A stretch of DNA of 64,000 nt from Apostichopus japonicus (Eukaryota; Echinodermata; Holothuroidea; Aspidochirotida; Stichopodidae): NCBI RefSeq assembly GCF_037975245.1, contig NC_092574.1, positions 23,003,713 to 23,067,712 of the forward strand, given 5' to 3'. This document shows positions 5,589-19,529 of this stretch, piece by piece (positions within the stretch are counted from its first letter, which is position 1; each line of letters opens with the position of its first letter). The notes under the pieces are model-generated. The model saw only the letters and a list, made by a program, of their open reading frames with translations. It was not told the origin of the DNA and searched no databases. The position numbers were made by a program, and so were the translations under genes.

Positions 5589-5656
5589 CAGTCGTTTTGT
5601 AGTTTGGATTTTTCGTGCCCAGGTTCTTTCCTGGGTGACTTTTCTTTAAAAAAAAT
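5589..5656 (+). mobile_element. 5'-truncated retroposon copy, sibling of the U2-headed element
   Basis: These 68 bp match the 3' part of the element at 6191-6384. They share CAGTCGTTTxGTAGTTTGG, a GTGCCCAGG-TTCTTT-CCTGxG hairpin, and GACTTTTCxTTAAAAAAAA as the tail. The copy is flanked by a perfect 11-bp direct repeat, ATCTTGATGAT (5578-5588 and 5657-5667). A 5' truncation, an A-rich tail and a target duplication together are the signature of LINE-mediated retroposition. The sibling 500 bp away has a different target duplication, so the two insertions were independent. Confidence 0.8.
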
Positions 5657-6190
5657 ATCTTGATGATATCAGATGTTCAAACTAAGGAATAATCCACTTT
5701 CTTCACGTTTGTTGCCGCTCATTCTTCGATTGCTGTTTGGAACTGTTCAGAGAACTGCGCAAGCAAAAGATACAAACTCGGCGTGAACGAAGGTCAGTCG
5801 ATTCCCGAAGGGATTGCATCGATGAACTGACCGTTACAGTGAAGATGGCTGTTTCGCCTGGGTACATAGAAAACTCTTACCTCTGTTCTCATCGGAAGAG
5901 CTGGTCTTACTTAGCGAATTTCCCTATATACTTCAATTCACAATACATTCTTGCCTGAGTGGTATCTCTGGTCACCGTACAGGGGGTATAAACATGGTCA
6001 GGGGGGAAATTCCACGTTGTGAAGAACGGATTCCAAGTACGAGCACTGACTTGTTGAGCGGACTTTGCCCCTCTATTCAAAATGATGTAACATGACAAGG
6101 ATGCGTATGTAAGGTCAGATATTACCATAGGGTCTCGTTGTGCGTGCCAATATTGAATATAACATATTGCTAACAAGTTCATACAACAAG

Positions 6191-6384
6191 ATCGCTTCTC
6201 GGCCTGTTGGCTAAGATCATGTGTAGTATCTGTTCCCTTTCGAGGGGAATGGTGATGCACACCCGACGATGATCACACAGTCACAGTCCCGATGCAAGGG
6301 GACTGGGGGTGAGAGCGGATCAGTCGTTTGGTAGTTTGGTTTCGTGCCCAGGTTCTTTCCTGAGCGACTTTTCCTTAAAAAAAA
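6191..6384 (+). mobile_element. Retroposon with a U2 snRNA-derived head
   Basis: Positions 6191-6235 match the first 45 nt of animal U2 snRNA with two mismatches, including the branch-site-recognition word GTGTAGTATCTGTTC (6221-6235). The U2 match then stops. A body of about 75 bp follows, containing two potential hairpins (CCC-TTTCGA-GGG; AGTCCC-n9-GGGACT). After that comes the same 3' module and A tail as the truncated copy at 5589-5656. The flanks are imperfect direct repeats, GTTCATACAACA (6177-6188) and GTTAATACAACA (6385-6396), 11/12 identical, consistent with a target site duplication. It is not a functional U2 gene, because the Sm site and 3' stem-loops are missing. U2-headed SINEs are known from crocodilians (SINEU). 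A one-off chimera formed by template switching is the alternative. Confidence 0.8.
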
Positions 6385-6490
6385 GTTAATACAACATTGC
6401 CGGTACAAAAAAAAATGAGAGAGGCAACGAAGCAGAGAGACTGTTTACAACGTGTGTAAGTGGTAAATGTCCCTTCTACGCTTCCGTAAA

Positions 6491-11737: not shown

Positions 11738-11808
11738 GTGTCCATAGCCTAGTGGTTAGGGTGTCCGCATATAAAGCGGGAGGCCCGGGTTCGAATCCCG
11801 GTGGAGGC
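11738..11808 (+). ncRNA. tRNA-like unit with intact Pol III boxes (SINE head)
   Basis: This 71-nt segment folds as a near-complete cloverleaf. The acceptor is GTGTCCA/TGGAGGC with one G-G mismatch and one wobble. The D stem is GCCT/GGGT, the anticodon stem TCCGC/GCGGG with loop ATATAAA, and the T arm CCGGG-TTCGAAT-CCCGG is perfect. The A box TAGCCTAGTGG (11745-11755) and B box GGTTCGAATCC (11788-11798) match consensus, and a T6 terminator follows at 11815-11820. The loop would give anticodon ATA, which is unusual, so a tRNA-derived element is more likely than a working tRNA. Its 3' flank ends in an (AT)n tail that it shares tail-to-tail with the minus-strand copy at 11933-12004. Confidence 0.65.
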
Positions 11809-11853
11809 TGGAAGTTTTTTCTATGTTCTGAATTTTCCTTCTCATTACGTTTT

Positions 11854-11885: not shown

Positions 11886-14800
11886 GAAAATCGTAATGAG
11901 TTGGAAAATCAAGAACAGTGAAAAAACTTTCAGCCTCCACCGGGATTCGAACCACGGGCCTCCCGCTCTGTACGCGGACACCCTAACCACTAGGCTATGG
12001 ACGCTGATTGTATGTCCAGAGGTTCGAAACTGGTAAGGAAGATCGTAATTCCACTGTAGGCGTTTGTCACCTATATCGAACAATACTAGTTCTGTTTTTG
12101 GTGACATATTTTGCCCTACTCTAGAGATCAAACATGATGCTATCCAACTCGAAAATCATTTGTGATTCCTAAAGCCGGATCTCGAAAGAGATACTTTGAA
12201 CAGACTTTATGTTAATGCAATGGAAGTAAACGACAAAGGCAAATGAATATATATAAATGAAAATCGTAATGAGTTGGAAAATCAAGAACAGTGAAAAAAC
12301 TTTCAGCCTCCACCGGGATTCGAACCACGGGCCTCCCGCTCTGTACGCGGACACCCTAACCACTAGGCTATGGACGCTGATTGTATGTCCAGAGGTTCGA
12401 AACTGGTAAGGAAGATCGTAATTCCACTGTAGGCGTTTGTCACCTATATCGAACAATACTAGTTCTGTTTTTGGTGACATATTTTGCCCTACTCTAGAGA
12501 TCAAACATGATGCTATCCAACTCGAAAATCATTTGTGATTCCTAAAGCCGGATCTCGAAAGAGATACTTTGAACAGACTTTATGTTAATGCAATGGAAGT
12601 AAACGACAAAGGCAAATGAATATATATAAATGAAAATCGTAATGAGTTGGAAAATCAAGAACAGTGAAAAAACTTTCAGCCTCCACCGGGATTCGAACCA
12701 CGGGCCTCCCGCTCTGTACGCGGACACCCTAACCACTAGGCTATGGACGCTGATTGTATGTCCAGAGGTTCGAAACTGGTAAGGAAGATCGTAATTCCAC
12801 TGTAGGCGTTTGTCACCTATATCGAACAATACTAGTTCTGTTTTTGGTGACATATTTTGCCCTACTCTAGAGATCAAACATGATGCTATCCAACTCGAAA
12901 ATCATTTGTGATTCCTAAAGCCGGATCTCGAAAGAGATACTTTGAACAGACTTTATGTTAATGCAATGGAAGTAAACGACAAAGGCAAATGAATATATAT
13001 AAATGAAAATCGTAATGAGTTGGAAAATCAAGAACAGTGAAAAAACTTTCAGCCTCCACCGGGATTCGAACCACGGGCCTCCCGCTCTGTACGCGGACAC
13101 CCTAACCACTAGGCTATGGACGCTGATTGTATGTCCAGAGGTTCGAAACTGGTAAGGAAGATCGTAATTCCACTGTAGGCGTTTGTCACCTATATCGAAC
13201 AATACTAGTTCTGTTTTTGGTGACATATTTTGCCCTACTCTAGAGATCAAACATGATGCTATCCAACTCGAAAATCATTTGTGATTCCTAAAGCCGGATC
13301 TCGAAAGAGATACTTTGAACAGACTTTATGTTAATGCAATGGAAGTAAACGACAAAGGCAAATGAATATATATAAATGAAAATCGTAATGAGTTGGAAAA
13401 TCAAGAACAGTGAAAAAACTTTCAGCCTCCACCGGGATTCGAACCACGGGCCTCCCGCTCTGTACGCGGACACCCTAACCACTAGGCTATGGACGCTGAT
13501 TGTATGTCCAGAGGTTCGAAACTGGTAAGGAAGATCGTAATTCCACTGTAGGCGTTTGTCACCTATATCGAACAATACTAGTTCTGTTTTTGGTGACATA
13601 TTTTGCCCTACTCTAGAGATCAAACATGATGCTATCCAACTCGAAAATCATTTGTGATTCCTAAAGCCGGATCTCGAAAGAGATACTTTGAACAGACTTT
13701 ATGTTAATGCAATGGAAGTAAACGACAAAGGCAAATGAATATATATAAATGAAAATCGTAATGAGTTGGAAAATCAAGAACAGTGAAAAAACTTTCAGCC
13801 TCCACCGGGATTCGAACCACGGGCCTCCCGCTCTGTACGCGGACACCCTAACCACTAGGCTATGGACGCTGATTGTATGTCCAGAGGTTCGAAACTGGTA
13901 AGGAAGATCGTAATTCCACTGTAGGCGTTTGTCACCTATATCGAACAATACTAGTTCTGTTTTTGGTGACATATTTTGCCCTACTCTAGAGATCAAACAT
14001 GATGCTATCCAACTCGAAAATCATTTGTGATTCCTAAAGCCGGATCTCGAAAGAGATACTTTGAACAGACTTTATGTTAATGCAATGGAAGTAAACGACA
14101 AAGGCAAATGAATATATATAAATGAAAATCGTAATGAGTTGGAAAATCAAGAACAGTGAAAAAACTTTCAGCCTCCACCGGGATTCGAACCACGGGCCTC
14201 CCGCTCTGTACGCGGACACCCTAACCACTAGGCTATGGACGCTGATTGTATGTCCAGAGGTTCGAAACTGGTAAGGAAGATCGTAATTCCACTGTAGGCG
14301 TTTGTCACCTATATCGAACAATACTAGTTCTGTTTTTGGTGACATATTTTGCCCTACTCTAGAGATCAAACATGATGCTATCCAACTCGAAAATCATTTG
14401 TGATTCCTAAAGCCGGATCTCGAAAGAGATACTTTGAACAGACTTTATGTTAATGCAATGGAAGTAAACGACAAAGGCAAATGAATATATATAAATGAAA
14501 ATCGTAATGAGTTGGAAAATCAAGAACAGTGAAAAAACTTTCAGCCTCCACCGGGATTCGAACCACGGGCCTCCCGCTCTGTACGCGGACACCCTAACCA
14601 CTAGGCTATGGACGCTGATTGTATGTCCAGAGGTTCGAAACTGGTAAGGAAGATCGTAATTCCACTGTAGGCGTTTGTCACCTATATCGAACAATACTAG
14701 TTCTGTTTTTGGTGACATATTTTGCCCTACTCTAGAGATCAAACATGATGCTATCCAACTCGAAAATCATTTGTGATTCCTAAAGCCGGATCTCGAAAGA

Positions 14801-17800
14801 GATACTTTGAACAGACTTTATGTTAATGCAATGGAAGTAAACGACAAAGGCAAATGAATATATATAAATGAAAATCGTAATGAGTTGGAAAATCAAGAAC
14901 AGTGAAAAAACTTTCAGCCTCCACCGGGATTCGAACCACGGGCCTCCCGCTCTGTACGCGGACACCCTAACCACTAGGCTATGGACGCTGATTGTATGTC
15001 CAGAGGTTCGAAACTGGTAAGGAAGATCGTAATTCCACTGTAGGCGTTTGTCACCTATATCGAACAATACTAGTTCTGTTTTTGGTGACATATTTTGCCC
15101 TACTCTAGAGATCAAACATGATGCTATCCAACTCGAAAATCATTTGTGATTCCTAAAGCCGGATCTCGAAAGAGATACTTTGAACAGACTTTATGTTAAT
15201 GCAATGGAAGTAAACGACAAAGGCAAATGAATATATATAAATGAAAATCGTAATGAGTTGGAAAATCAAGAACAGTGAAAAAACTTTCAGCCTCCACCGG
15301 GATTCGAACCACGGGCCTCCCGCTCTGTACGCGGACACCCTAACCACTAGGCTATGGACGCTGATTGTATGTCCAGAGGTTCGAAACTGGTAAGGAAGAT
15401 CGTAATTCCACTGTAGGCGTTTGTCACCTATATCGAACAATACTAGTTCTGTTTTTGGTGACATATTTTGCCCTACTCTAGAGATCAAACATGATGCTAT
15501 CCAACTCGAAAATCATTTGTGATTCCTAAAGCCGGATCTCGAAAGAGATACTTTGAACAGACTTTATGTTAATGCAATGGAAGTAAACGACAAAGGCAAA
15601 TGAATATATATAAATGAAAATCGTAATGAGTTGGAAAATCAAGAACAGTGAAAAAACTTTCAGCCTCCACCGGGATTCGAACCACGGGCCTCCCGCTCTG
15701 TACGCGGACACCCTAACCACTAGGCTATGGACGCTGATTGTATGTCCAGAGGTTCGAAACTGGTAAGGAAGATCGTAATTCCACTGTAGGCGTTTGTCAC
15801 CTATATCGAACAATACTAGTTCTGTTTTTGGTGACATATTTTGCCCTACTCTAGAGATCAAACATGATGCTATCCAACTCGAAAATCATTTGTGATTCCT
15901 AAAGCCGGATCTCGAAAGAGATACTTTGAACAGACTTTATGTTAATGCAATGGAAGTAAACGACAAAGGCAAATGAATATATATAAATGAAAATCGTAAT
16001 GAGTTGGAAAATCAAGAACAGTGAAAAAACTTTCAGCCTCCACCGGGATTCGAACCACGGGCCTCCCGCTCTGTACGCGGACACCCTAACCACTAGGCTA
16101 TGGACGCTGATTGTATGTCCAGAGGTTCGAAACTGGTAAGGAAGATCGTAATTCCACTGTAGGCGTTTGTCACCTATATCGAACAATACTAGTTCTGTTT
16201 TTGGTGACATATTTTGCCCTACTCTAGAGATCAAACATGATGCTATCCAACTCGAAAATCATTTGTGATTCCTAAAGCCGGATCTCGAAAGAGATACTTT
16301 GAACAGACTTTATGTTAATGCAATGGAAGTAAACGACAAAGGCAAATGAATATATATAAATGAAAATCGTAATGAGTTGGAAAATCAAGAACAGTGAAAA
16401 AACTTTCAGCCTCCACCGGGATTCGAACCACGGGCCTCCCGCTCTGTACGCGGACACCCTAACCACTAGGCTATGGACGCTGATTGTATGTCCAGAGGTT
16501 CGAAACTGGTAAGGAAGATCGTAATTCCACTGTAGGCGTTTGTCACCTATATCGAACAATACTAGTTCTGTTTTTGGTGACATATTTTGCCCTACTCTAG
16601 AGATCAAACATGATGCTATCCAACTCGAAAATCATTTGTGATTCCTAAAGCCGGATCTCGAAAGAGATACTTTGAACAGACTTTATGTTAATGCAATGGA
16701 AGTAAACGACAAAGGCAAATGAATATATATAAATGAAAATCGTAATGAGTTGGAAAATCAAGAACAGTGAAAAAACTTTCAGCCTCCACCGGGATTCGAA
16801 CCACGGGCCTCCCGCTCTGTACGCGGACACCCTAACCACTAGGCTATGGACGCTGATTGTATGTCCAGAGGTTCGAAACTGGTAAGGAAGATCGTAATTC
16901 CACTGTAGGCGTTTGTCACCTATATCGAACAATACTAGTTCTGTTTTTGGTGACATATTTTGCCCTACTCTAGAGATCAAACATGATGCTATCCAACTCG
17001 AAAATCATTTGTGATTCCTAAAGCCGGATCTCGAAAGAGATACTTTGAACAGACTTTATGTTAATGCAATGGAAGTAAACGACAAAGGCAAATGAATATA
17101 TATAAATGAAAATCGTAATGAGTTGGAAAATCAAGAACAGTGAAAAAACTTTCAGCCTCCACCGGGATTCGAACCACGGGCCTCCCGCTCTGTACGCGGA
17201 CACCCTAACCACTAGGCTATGGACGCTGATTGTATGTCCAGAGGTTCGAAACTGGTAAGGAAGATCGTAATTCCACTGTAGGCGTTTGTCACCTATATCG
17301 AACAATACTAGTTCTGTTTTTGGTGACATATTTTGCCCTACTCTAGAGATCAAACATGATGCTATCCAACTCGAAAATCATTTGTGATTCCTAAAGCCGG
17401 ATCTCGAAAGAGATACTTTGAACAGACTTTATGTTAATGCAATGGAAGTAAACGACAAAGGCAAATGAATATATATAAATGAAAATCGTAATGAGTTGGA
17501 AAATCAAGAACAGTGAAAAAACTTTCAGCCTCCACCGGGATTCGAACCACGGGCCTCCCGCTCTGTACGCGGACACCCTAACCACTAGGCTATGGACGCT
17601 GATTGTATGTCCAGAGGTTCGAAACTGGTAAGGAAGATCGTAATTCCACTGTAGGCGTTTGTCACCTATATCGAACAATACTAGTTCTGTTTTTGGTGAC
17701 ATATTTTGCCCTACTCTAGAGATCAAACATGATGCTATCCAACTCGAAAATCATTTGTGATTCCTAAAGCCGGATCTCGAAAGAGATACTTTGAACAGAC

Positions 17801-19529
17801 TTTATGTTAATGCAATGGAAGTAAACGACAAAGGCAAATGAATATATATAAATGAAAATCGTAATGAGTTGGAAAATCAAGAACAGTGAAAAAACTTTCA
17901 GCCTCCACCGGGATTCGAACCACGGGCCTCCCGCTCTGTACGCGGACACCCTAACCACTAGGCTATGGACGCTGATTGTATGTCCAGAGGTTCGAAACTG
18001 GTAAGGAAGATCGTAATTCCACTGTAGGCGTTTGTCACCTATATCGAACAATACTAGTTCTGTTTTTGGTGACATATTTTGCCCTACTCTAGAGATCAAA
18101 CATGATGCTATCCAACTCGAAAATCATTTGTGATTCCTAAAGCCGGATCTCGAAAGAGATACTTTGAACAGACTTTATGTTAATGCAATGGAAGTAAACG
18201 ACAAAGGCAAATGAATATATATAAATGAAAATCGTAATGAGTTGGAAAATCAAGAACAGTGAAAAAACTTTCAGCCTCCACCGGGATTCGAACCACGGGC
18301 CTCCCGCTCTGTACGCGGACACCCTAACCACTAGGCTATGGACGCTGATTGTATGTCCAGAGGTTCGAAACTGGTAAGGAAGATCGTAATTCCACTGTAG
18401 GCGTTTGTCACCTATATCGAACAATACTAGTTCTGTTTTTGGTGACATATTTTGCCCTACTCTAGAGATCAAACATGATGCTATCCAACTCGAAAATCAT
18501 TTGTGATTCCTAAAGCCGGATCTCGAAAGAGATACTTTGAACAGACTTTATGTTAATGCAATGGAAGTAAACGACAAAGGCAAATGAATATATATAAATG
18601 AAAATCGTAATGAGTTGGAAAATCAAGAACAGTGAAAAAACTTTCAGCCTCCACCGGGATTCGAACCACGGGCCTCCCGCTCTGTACGCGGACACCCTAA
18701 CCACTAGGCTATGGACGCTGATTGTATGTCCAGAGGTTCGAAACTGGTAAGGAAGATCGTAATTCCACTGTAGGCGTTTGTCACCTATATCGAACAATAC
18801 TAGTTCTGTTTTTGGTGACATATTTTGCCCTACTCTAGAGATCAAACATGATGCTATCCAACTCGAAAATCATTTGTGATTCCTAAAGCCGGATCTCGAA
18901 AGAGATACTTTGAACAGACTTTATGTTAATGCAATGGAAGTAAACGACAAAGGCAAATGAATATATATAAATGAAAATCGTAATGAGTTGGAAAATCAAG
19001 AACAGTGAAAAAACTTTCAGCCTCCACCGGGATTCGAACCACGGGCCTCCCGCTCTGTACGCGGACACCCTAACCACTAGGCTATGGACGCTGATTGTAT
19101 GTCCAGAGGTTCGAAACTGGTAAGGAAGATCGTAATTCCACTGTAGGCGTTTGTCACCTATATCGAACAATACTAGTTCTGTTTTTGGTGACATATTTTG
19201 CCCTACTCTAGAGATCAAACATGATGCTATCCAACTCGAAAATCATTTGTGATTCCTAAAGCCGGATCTCGAAAGAGATACTTTGAACAGACTTTATGTT
19301 AATGCAATGGAAGTAAACGACAAAGGCAAATGAATATATATAAATGAAAATCGTAATGAGTTGGAAAATCAAGAACAGTGAAAAAACTTTCAGCCTCCAC
19401 CGGGATTCGAACCACGGGCCTCCCGCTCTGTACGCGGACACCCTAACCACTAGGCTATGGACGCTGATTGTATGTCCAGAGGTTCGAAACTGGTAAGGAA
19501 GATCGTAATTCCACTGTAGGCGTTTGTCA

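Follow-up and report, generated by a model that had tools for sequence, protein, structure and literature searches.

The element under study lies in the window, which here denotes the whole analysed stretch of 64,000 nucleotides of Apostichopus japonicus, and it consists of a head derived from U2 snRNA, a body and a hairpin tail between two target-site duplications (TSDs), with a second, truncated copy at a short distance upstream, as listed in Table 1. A cmscan search matched positions 6191-6267 to the Rfam U2 family (RF00004) with 49.6 bits and an E value of 7.5e-7, so that this SINE copy exceeds the Rfam cut-off for U2 (gathering threshold 46), and no Rfam family except U2 was matched at E<1 within the element. 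The original prediction had put the agreement of the head with the U2 5' end at 43 of 45 positions; the head itself is real, and the count is corrected to 44 of 45 against nt 1-45 of the host's own U2 and to 42 of 45 against the Rfam consensus line, nt 30 being T in both the host U2 and the SINE head and A in the Rfam consensus. The similarity to U2 stops past nt 45, where U2 reads GTTCTTTTCAGC and the window reads GTTCCCTTTCGAGGGG, and the body carries no detectable U2 similarity beyond the head, in line with the earlier statement that the remainder is unrelated to U2. The hairpin and A tail said to be common to both copies were likewise recovered, the upstream copy being a 5'-truncated member of the same family, and the target duplications claimed for the two copies are present with the matches given in Table 1. 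Elsewhere in the window, 21 tRNA-like matches on the minus strand with a regular spacing of 373 bp form a tandem tRNA array (11932-19464); ahead of it lie a tRNA on the plus strand (11738-11809) and, between two inverted tRNAs, a long hairpin.

Table 1. Parts of the U2-headed SINE and its neighbouring copy in the window
Feature	Position	Strand	Basis
Left target-site duplication, GTTCATACAACA	6177..6188	+	read directly; 11/12 match to 6385-6396
U2 head, U2 nt 1-45	6191..6235	+	cmscan RF00004; comparison with host U2 loci
Junction hairpin TTCCC-TTTCGA-GGGGAA across the head/body boundary, main-type junction	6233..6249	+	pairing by eye
SINE body, U2 similarity beyond the head undetectable; holds hairpin 6284-6305	6236..6342	+	
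Tail: hairpin GCCCAGG-TTCTTT-CCTGAGC, then CTTTTCCTT, A-run	6343..6384	+	sequence; tail pattern genome-wide
Right target-site duplication, GTTAATACAACA	6385..6396	+	11/12 match to left TSD
Second copy of the same SINE, 5'-truncated, tail only	5589..5656	+	exact 11-nt TSD ATCTTGATGAT

The family was searched in one genome of 671,581,487 bases in 35 contigs, and the SINE samples described below are mostly the best-scoring matches or the first 100 of those listed. A 27-nt junction pattern with at most two mismatches gave 1,208 matches (611 + 597) in the genome and 0 for the reversed-pattern control, the tail pattern gave 2,154 matches genome-wide with 0 for its control, and a 200-bp query gave 44 matches of 92-100% identity, the query included, with 40 of 2,302 candidates scored. 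The genome search that had been proposed as a check therefore returned many copies with the same U2-to-body junction, and the claim of a true retroposon family is borne out by one main junction with a few discrete variants, by TSDs and by a conserved tail. Of 124 SINE elements that were read, a set which retains duplicates such as those from fold-back repeats, 76 begin within U2 nt 1-5, and 74 carry an exact TSD of at least 9 nt, against 11 of 619 shuffled pairs; 71 distinct TSDs were counted. Duplicates from fold-back repeats were collapsed for these 71 TSDs and for the divergence counts, and kept in the sets of 124 and 66 copies and in the haplotype counts. In both subfamilies the majority head is that of the host U2 from nt 2 to nt 45; it has a gap at nt 1, as a large number of copies begin only at nt 2 or further in.

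Differential ages were observed for the copies of the family. Main-type copies diverge by about 3% from their own consensus, and the old copies show similar divergences of 0.028 in the head, 0.031 in the body and 0.037 in the tail (n=37), so that a stronger constraint on the head than on the body was rejected for them. The young copies show 0.0037 in the head, 0.020 in the body with junction variants included and 0.0071 in the tail (n=37), and in this younger group 10 of the 66 copies compared, fold-back duplicates included, are letter-identical over 181 nt, which suggests recent activity of the SINE. Some older copies possibly have a different head, such as L045, which matches from nt 47 only and is without a clear TSD, and L069, which matches from nt 35. 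Junction haplotypes were coded by hand, fold-back duplicates included, for 100 listed of 178, and comprise CC-A-A (34), CC-C-A (26), CC-C-G (15) and TT-C-G (13), with TT-A-A (7), TT-C-A (3) and TC (2) as the rarer forms; 11 of the 13 TT-C-G rows are arms of fold-back repeats (10 read, 1 assumed from its partner) and 2 are separate insertions.

Inverted SINE pairs 2-3 kb apart were considered as a larger element with U2 ends and proved to be a fold-back repeat with one SINE per arm and one TSD. This repeat, with long and near-perfect inverted arms, is found in L049 (C2:13099500-13103110), L050 (C3:5845300-5847720) and L051 (C3:25407100-25410550), where each arm contains a TTTTC-type U2-SINE with the same TSD, which indicates that the SINE was carried along by another element. 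Eight SINE junctions on one strand, 2.7-4.1 kb apart, lie at G000:C5:11042412-11066012 (L052 in part), where the SINE was apparently amplified within a larger tandem unit. The tail also occurs in arrays, with eight in 1.1 kb at C2:21947798-21948925 and five at a period of about 171 bp at C3:3634957-3635665, and these possibly grew by insertion into SINE tails or heads or by unequal exchange.

True U2 genes are located mostly in a tandem array of 645-bp period on C16, with at least 42 genes on C16 and at least 4 on C15 among the 46 matches scored, and the SINE has inserted into these genes. A search for SINEs with the array's U2 promoter flank directly upstream, irrespective of a junction at nt 35, found three, all in the C16 array (C16:31059430, 31132447 and 31133890), and in each the promoter flank leads into the first 42 or 45 nt of U2, which are followed by the body and tail of the SINE and then by U2 nt 35-193. 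The pattern joining the SINE 3' end to U2 nt 35-53, which sees insertions at that position only, gave seven exact matches in the genome and 0 for its control, six in the C16 array and one in a diverged U2 copy on C20, while a single two-mismatch match on C5 is a SINE within a SINE head. The copies read at such junctions include 71 nt of the tail between a LINE-like 3' end and U2 nt 35-53 (L142); U2 nt 1-40 followed by a truncated SINE and then a second SINE (L143); U2 nt 1-53 followed by a truncated SINE (L144); and an old-type copy in the C20 U2, the U2 part of which is 90% (L145). Their differing 5' ends at one 3' position point to several independent insertions. In the 149-kb array 0.48 tail copies are expected at random, which gives P(>=6) = 1e-5 when array duplication is ignored, and part of the in-array copies may be duplicates produced by array turnover. 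Over 181 nt, seven of the 66 dispersed copies (fold-back duplicates included in the 66) agree letter for letter with the in-array copy L141_1518, and L141_75 is identical to the dispersed copy L060, which has the rare CCCCTC junction too; the third in-array copy, L140, has no identical partner among the 66 and lies one change from seven of them. Such identity shows a direct link between in-array and dispersed copies and does not by itself give the direction, so that the in-array copies could be offspring and not sources.

The U2 genes of the C16 array are also interrupted by a LINE, two neighbouring copies of which lie in L117, where U2 nt 1-50 precede the 5' end of the element and U2 nt 35-193 continue from its 3' end; another 5' junction of the LINE after U2 nt 50 was observed in L141. 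Its ORF1 contains zinc knuckles; ORF2, which was followed as far as the locus extends, contains Exo_endo_phos (PF03372) and RVT_1 (PF00078) domains, and the LINE is called Keno-like here for its APE endonuclease, its reverse transcriptase and its place in U2 genes, features that agree with the description of Keno. The 3' boundary of the SINE in the array is that of this Keno-like APE LINE, and in the TTTTC junction variants the 5' boundary at U2 nt 1-50 is that of the LINE as well. Both elements end in AGTA, and the exact boundary cannot be fixed because this terminal AGTA equals U2 nt 35-38.

The SINE tail and the LINE 3' end in L117 show no significant similarity, with matches of 11-16 nt at E values of at least 0.5, and the short terminal stem ACTT...AAGT that both possess may be due to chance. 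A derivation of the SINE body from the 5' or the 3' end of the U2 LINE was rejected, as no significant similarity was found. The original prediction had called for a LINE with the same hairpin tail, and none was found among the loci looked at: no SINE tail was present in the 2.3 kb downstream of 20 RVT_1 matches hand-chosen for variety out of 150; the two U2-array LINE loci had no significant similarity to the SINE tail; and of 32 matches of the tail pattern with altered upstream sequence, 8 loci were fetched and none read as a LINE 3' end; what they hold are SINE copies, short fragments of the tail and, in a duplicated stretch (L089/L090), one old fragment. The tail in L089 was rejected as a LINE 3' end, the reverse-transcriptase-like frame lying about 3 kb away on the other strand. 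A second LINE type in the U2 array, with a 961-aa frame, sits immediately before U2 +1 (L118, G000:C16:31041000-31046500), apparently with a short duplication of promoter-proximal sequence, and its target differs from that of the Keno-like LINE. At G000:C7:316612-373963, six equally scoring reverse transcriptase frames, each of 926 aa and spaced by 8.5-15 kb, possibly form a tandem LINE cluster.

The dispersed copies keep a trace of the U2 target at their insertion sites. In 68 young copies, a few of which are insertions into other SINEs, CTTAAAA is followed by A (required by the pattern), G in 66, T in 65 and A in 66, and the next bases are T in 46, C in 44 and T in 36, U2 nt 35-41 being AGTATCT. 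The AGTA at the end of the young copies corresponds to U2 nt 35-38, and the TCT preferred at their insertion sites to U2 nt 39-41; for the three bases of TCT, p = 6e-9, 2e-16 and 7e-4 against typed background rates. The duplication begins 1-3 nt past the A-run in 51 of the 71 distinct TSDs, which means that at least the G, and in 33 of the 51 the GT, came with the element, and the following TCT is a target preference, so that U2-like sites are still favoured by the insertion machinery. SINEs inserted at nt 35 of the U2 heads of other SINEs were observed in L062, L143 and L132.

With good confidence, the family is taken to be a U2-gene-targeted, SIDE-like SINE that would be transcribed from the U2 promoter, be mobilised by the U2-specific LINE and leak to other sites, with its master copies in U2 genes, and, jointly with this placing of the masters, the window element is taken to be a dispersed, older (main-type) copy of this non-autonomous retroposon family. 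In the proposed life cycle, a body and tail of about 145 nt enter a U2 gene immediately before U2 nt 35-39, which is the LINE site, and the inserted copy, standing behind the U2 promoter, would give rise to a putative Pol II transcript that starts at U2 +1 and is headed by U2 nt 1-45 (or 1-50). Reverse transcription of this SINE RNA from its 3' end would be the work of the LINE machinery, for which the Keno-like LINE is the candidate, and the cDNA could either go back into a U2 gene, the head possibly serving as a homology arm and the return being seamless because the head matches the gene, or escape to target-like sites (A|TCT) and produce the dispersed copies that begin at U2 nt 1; the in-array copies would thus be the source and not the sink. 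The RNA of the typed young consensus is predicted to be strongly structured, with a folding energy of -74 kcal/mol (z = -4.3), and in this model it keeps U2 stem-loop I and pairs U2 nt 31-35 with the body. With somewhat less confidence, we lean to the wider view that snRNA-headed SINEs arise by nesting and not by template switching, in that a retroposon at the U2-LINE site would borrow the Pol II promoter and leader and seed dispersed copies.

Template switching, in which the reverse transcriptase would have jumped to mature U2 snRNA and added the head to an older SINE, perhaps repeatedly, so that the sources are dispersed and the U2-gene copies are by-products of the target preference of the LINE, is regarded as unlikely. 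The U2-like TTTT after nt 45 occurs on three backgrounds (C-G, C-A and A-A) beside the CC forms, and repeated U2 capture or recombination would leave such reticulate variants, but array turnover accounts for them equally well. The heads of the young copies are less diverged than body and tail (n=37), as fresh heads would be, although a low head divergence is also expected of a young family with a varied junction; a recurrent addition of U1/U2 is moreover reported for the crocodilian SINEU-1. Insertion into a U2 gene, on the other hand, yields the same head without any jump and a promoter besides, and the identity of in-array and dispersed copies together with the U2-matching 3' end fits nesting better.

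The reading as a conventional SINE that Pol III transcribes from a promoter within the element, with the A-box-like TGGCTAAG in its U2 head serving by chance, has a very low probability. By eye, TGGCTAAG does fit the core of the A box as commonly given, but the same A-box-like core stands in the host U2 genes, and no convincing B box was seen by eye, the nearest candidate, TTTCGAGGG, not occurring in the young junction variants. Pol III should terminate at runs of four or five T; the consensus head has such a run (CCTTTTGG) and the young copies have another towards their end (CTTTTTC), yet the copies continue through CTTAAAAAGT, which, together with the lack of a stable B box by eye, makes Pol III transcription unlikely. 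A single chimera or a chance resemblance to U2 has practically no probability left and is refuted by the 1,208 copies with the same junction, where the control gave 0.

The U2-nested origin favoured here bears on how such a SINE could be expressed. The promoters of snRNA genes such as U2 lie outside the transcribed region, so that a U2-headed SINE should be unable to transcribe itself, and the concrete answer offered is that the decisive copies may be those lodged within U2 genes. If nesting is true, the U2 array would be a nursery for a SINE without a promoter of its own, and the same route could also explain why crocodilian snRNA-headed SINEs reportedly go with LINEs of the Tx1 clade, which is said to be the clade of the U2-targeting Keno. 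The model joins two separately described kinds of elements, snRNA-headed SINEs and target-gene-dependent SIDEs, and is testable in a farmed and sequenced animal. The annotation of the species is also concerned. The part of PMC10344927 consulted (Table 6) gives 996 splicing snRNAs identified via Rfam and 159,644 bp of SINEs, or 0.02% of the genome, for A. japonicus. These 159,644 bp are less than the span of 1,208 full-length copies at about 190 bp. The U2-headed SINE is therefore probably counted in part as snRNA genes and largely missing from the SINE total, because the window copy passes the Rfam cut-off for U2 and the SINE total is too small for 1,208 copies.

Among known systems, the crocodilian SINEU elements are reportedly multi-copy SINEs with U1 or U2 snRNA heads, and they are said to be mobilised by a Tx1-clade LINE and to prefer a Mariner transposon; Keno belongs to the Tx1 clade. 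The sea cucumber SINE resembles SINEU in its spliceosomal snRNA head, taken from U2, and in being multi-copy, but differs in having U2 only, in its host lineage and in the copies nested in U2 genes, and its U2-like A|TCT sites stand against the Mariner preference reported for SINEU. Its head is that of the host's own U2 including the T at nt 30, which, in this comparison with the host U2, supports the view that the SINE arose in this lineage and separately from the crocodilian elements.

The R2 and R2/R1 SIDEs of Drosophila are described in the available part of PMC3414825 as short non-autonomous retroposons at the LINE target site in 28S genes, which rely on cotranscription with the host gene, are not Pol III SINEs, and represent LINEs that have lost internal sequence and carry a self-cleaving ribozyme at the 5' end. 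As in SIDEs, a non-autonomous element was found here to occupy the target site of a LINE in a multicopy RNA gene, but the SINE body has no significant similarity to the U2 LINE in L117, so that no sign of an origin by internal deletion of that LINE was seen, and unlike SIDEs the sea cucumber SINE keeps a leader from the host gene and has over a thousand dispersed copies. According to the part of PMC4640811 available, Utopia and Keno target U2 with a shared 3' flank starting at U2 nt 39, Keno being of the APE type, and no U2-targeted SINE is described there. The SINE has the same U2 target, with its site at nt 35, or at 39 if AGTA is counted to the element, and the array LINE shares the APE-type endonuclease of Keno, whereas the SINE, in contrast to Keno and Utopia, is non-coding and non-autonomous. 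MeloSINE and PlatSINE1/snoRTE, as presented in the available part of PMC7245038, are SINEs with parts derived from 28S or snoRNA, and thus likewise from RNA genes other than tRNA, 7SL and 5S, but that part does not mention copies lodged within the donor gene. No description of a SINE that nests in U2 genes was found in the literature searched, which included the available parts of PMC3706591 and PMC5035012 and outside of which lay most subscription papers and Repbase. We rate the sea cucumber SINE as an element that would work like a SIDE and looks like a SINEU, in which the snRNA-headed SINE and the 28S SIDE are known kinds and the nesting in U2 genes appears new.
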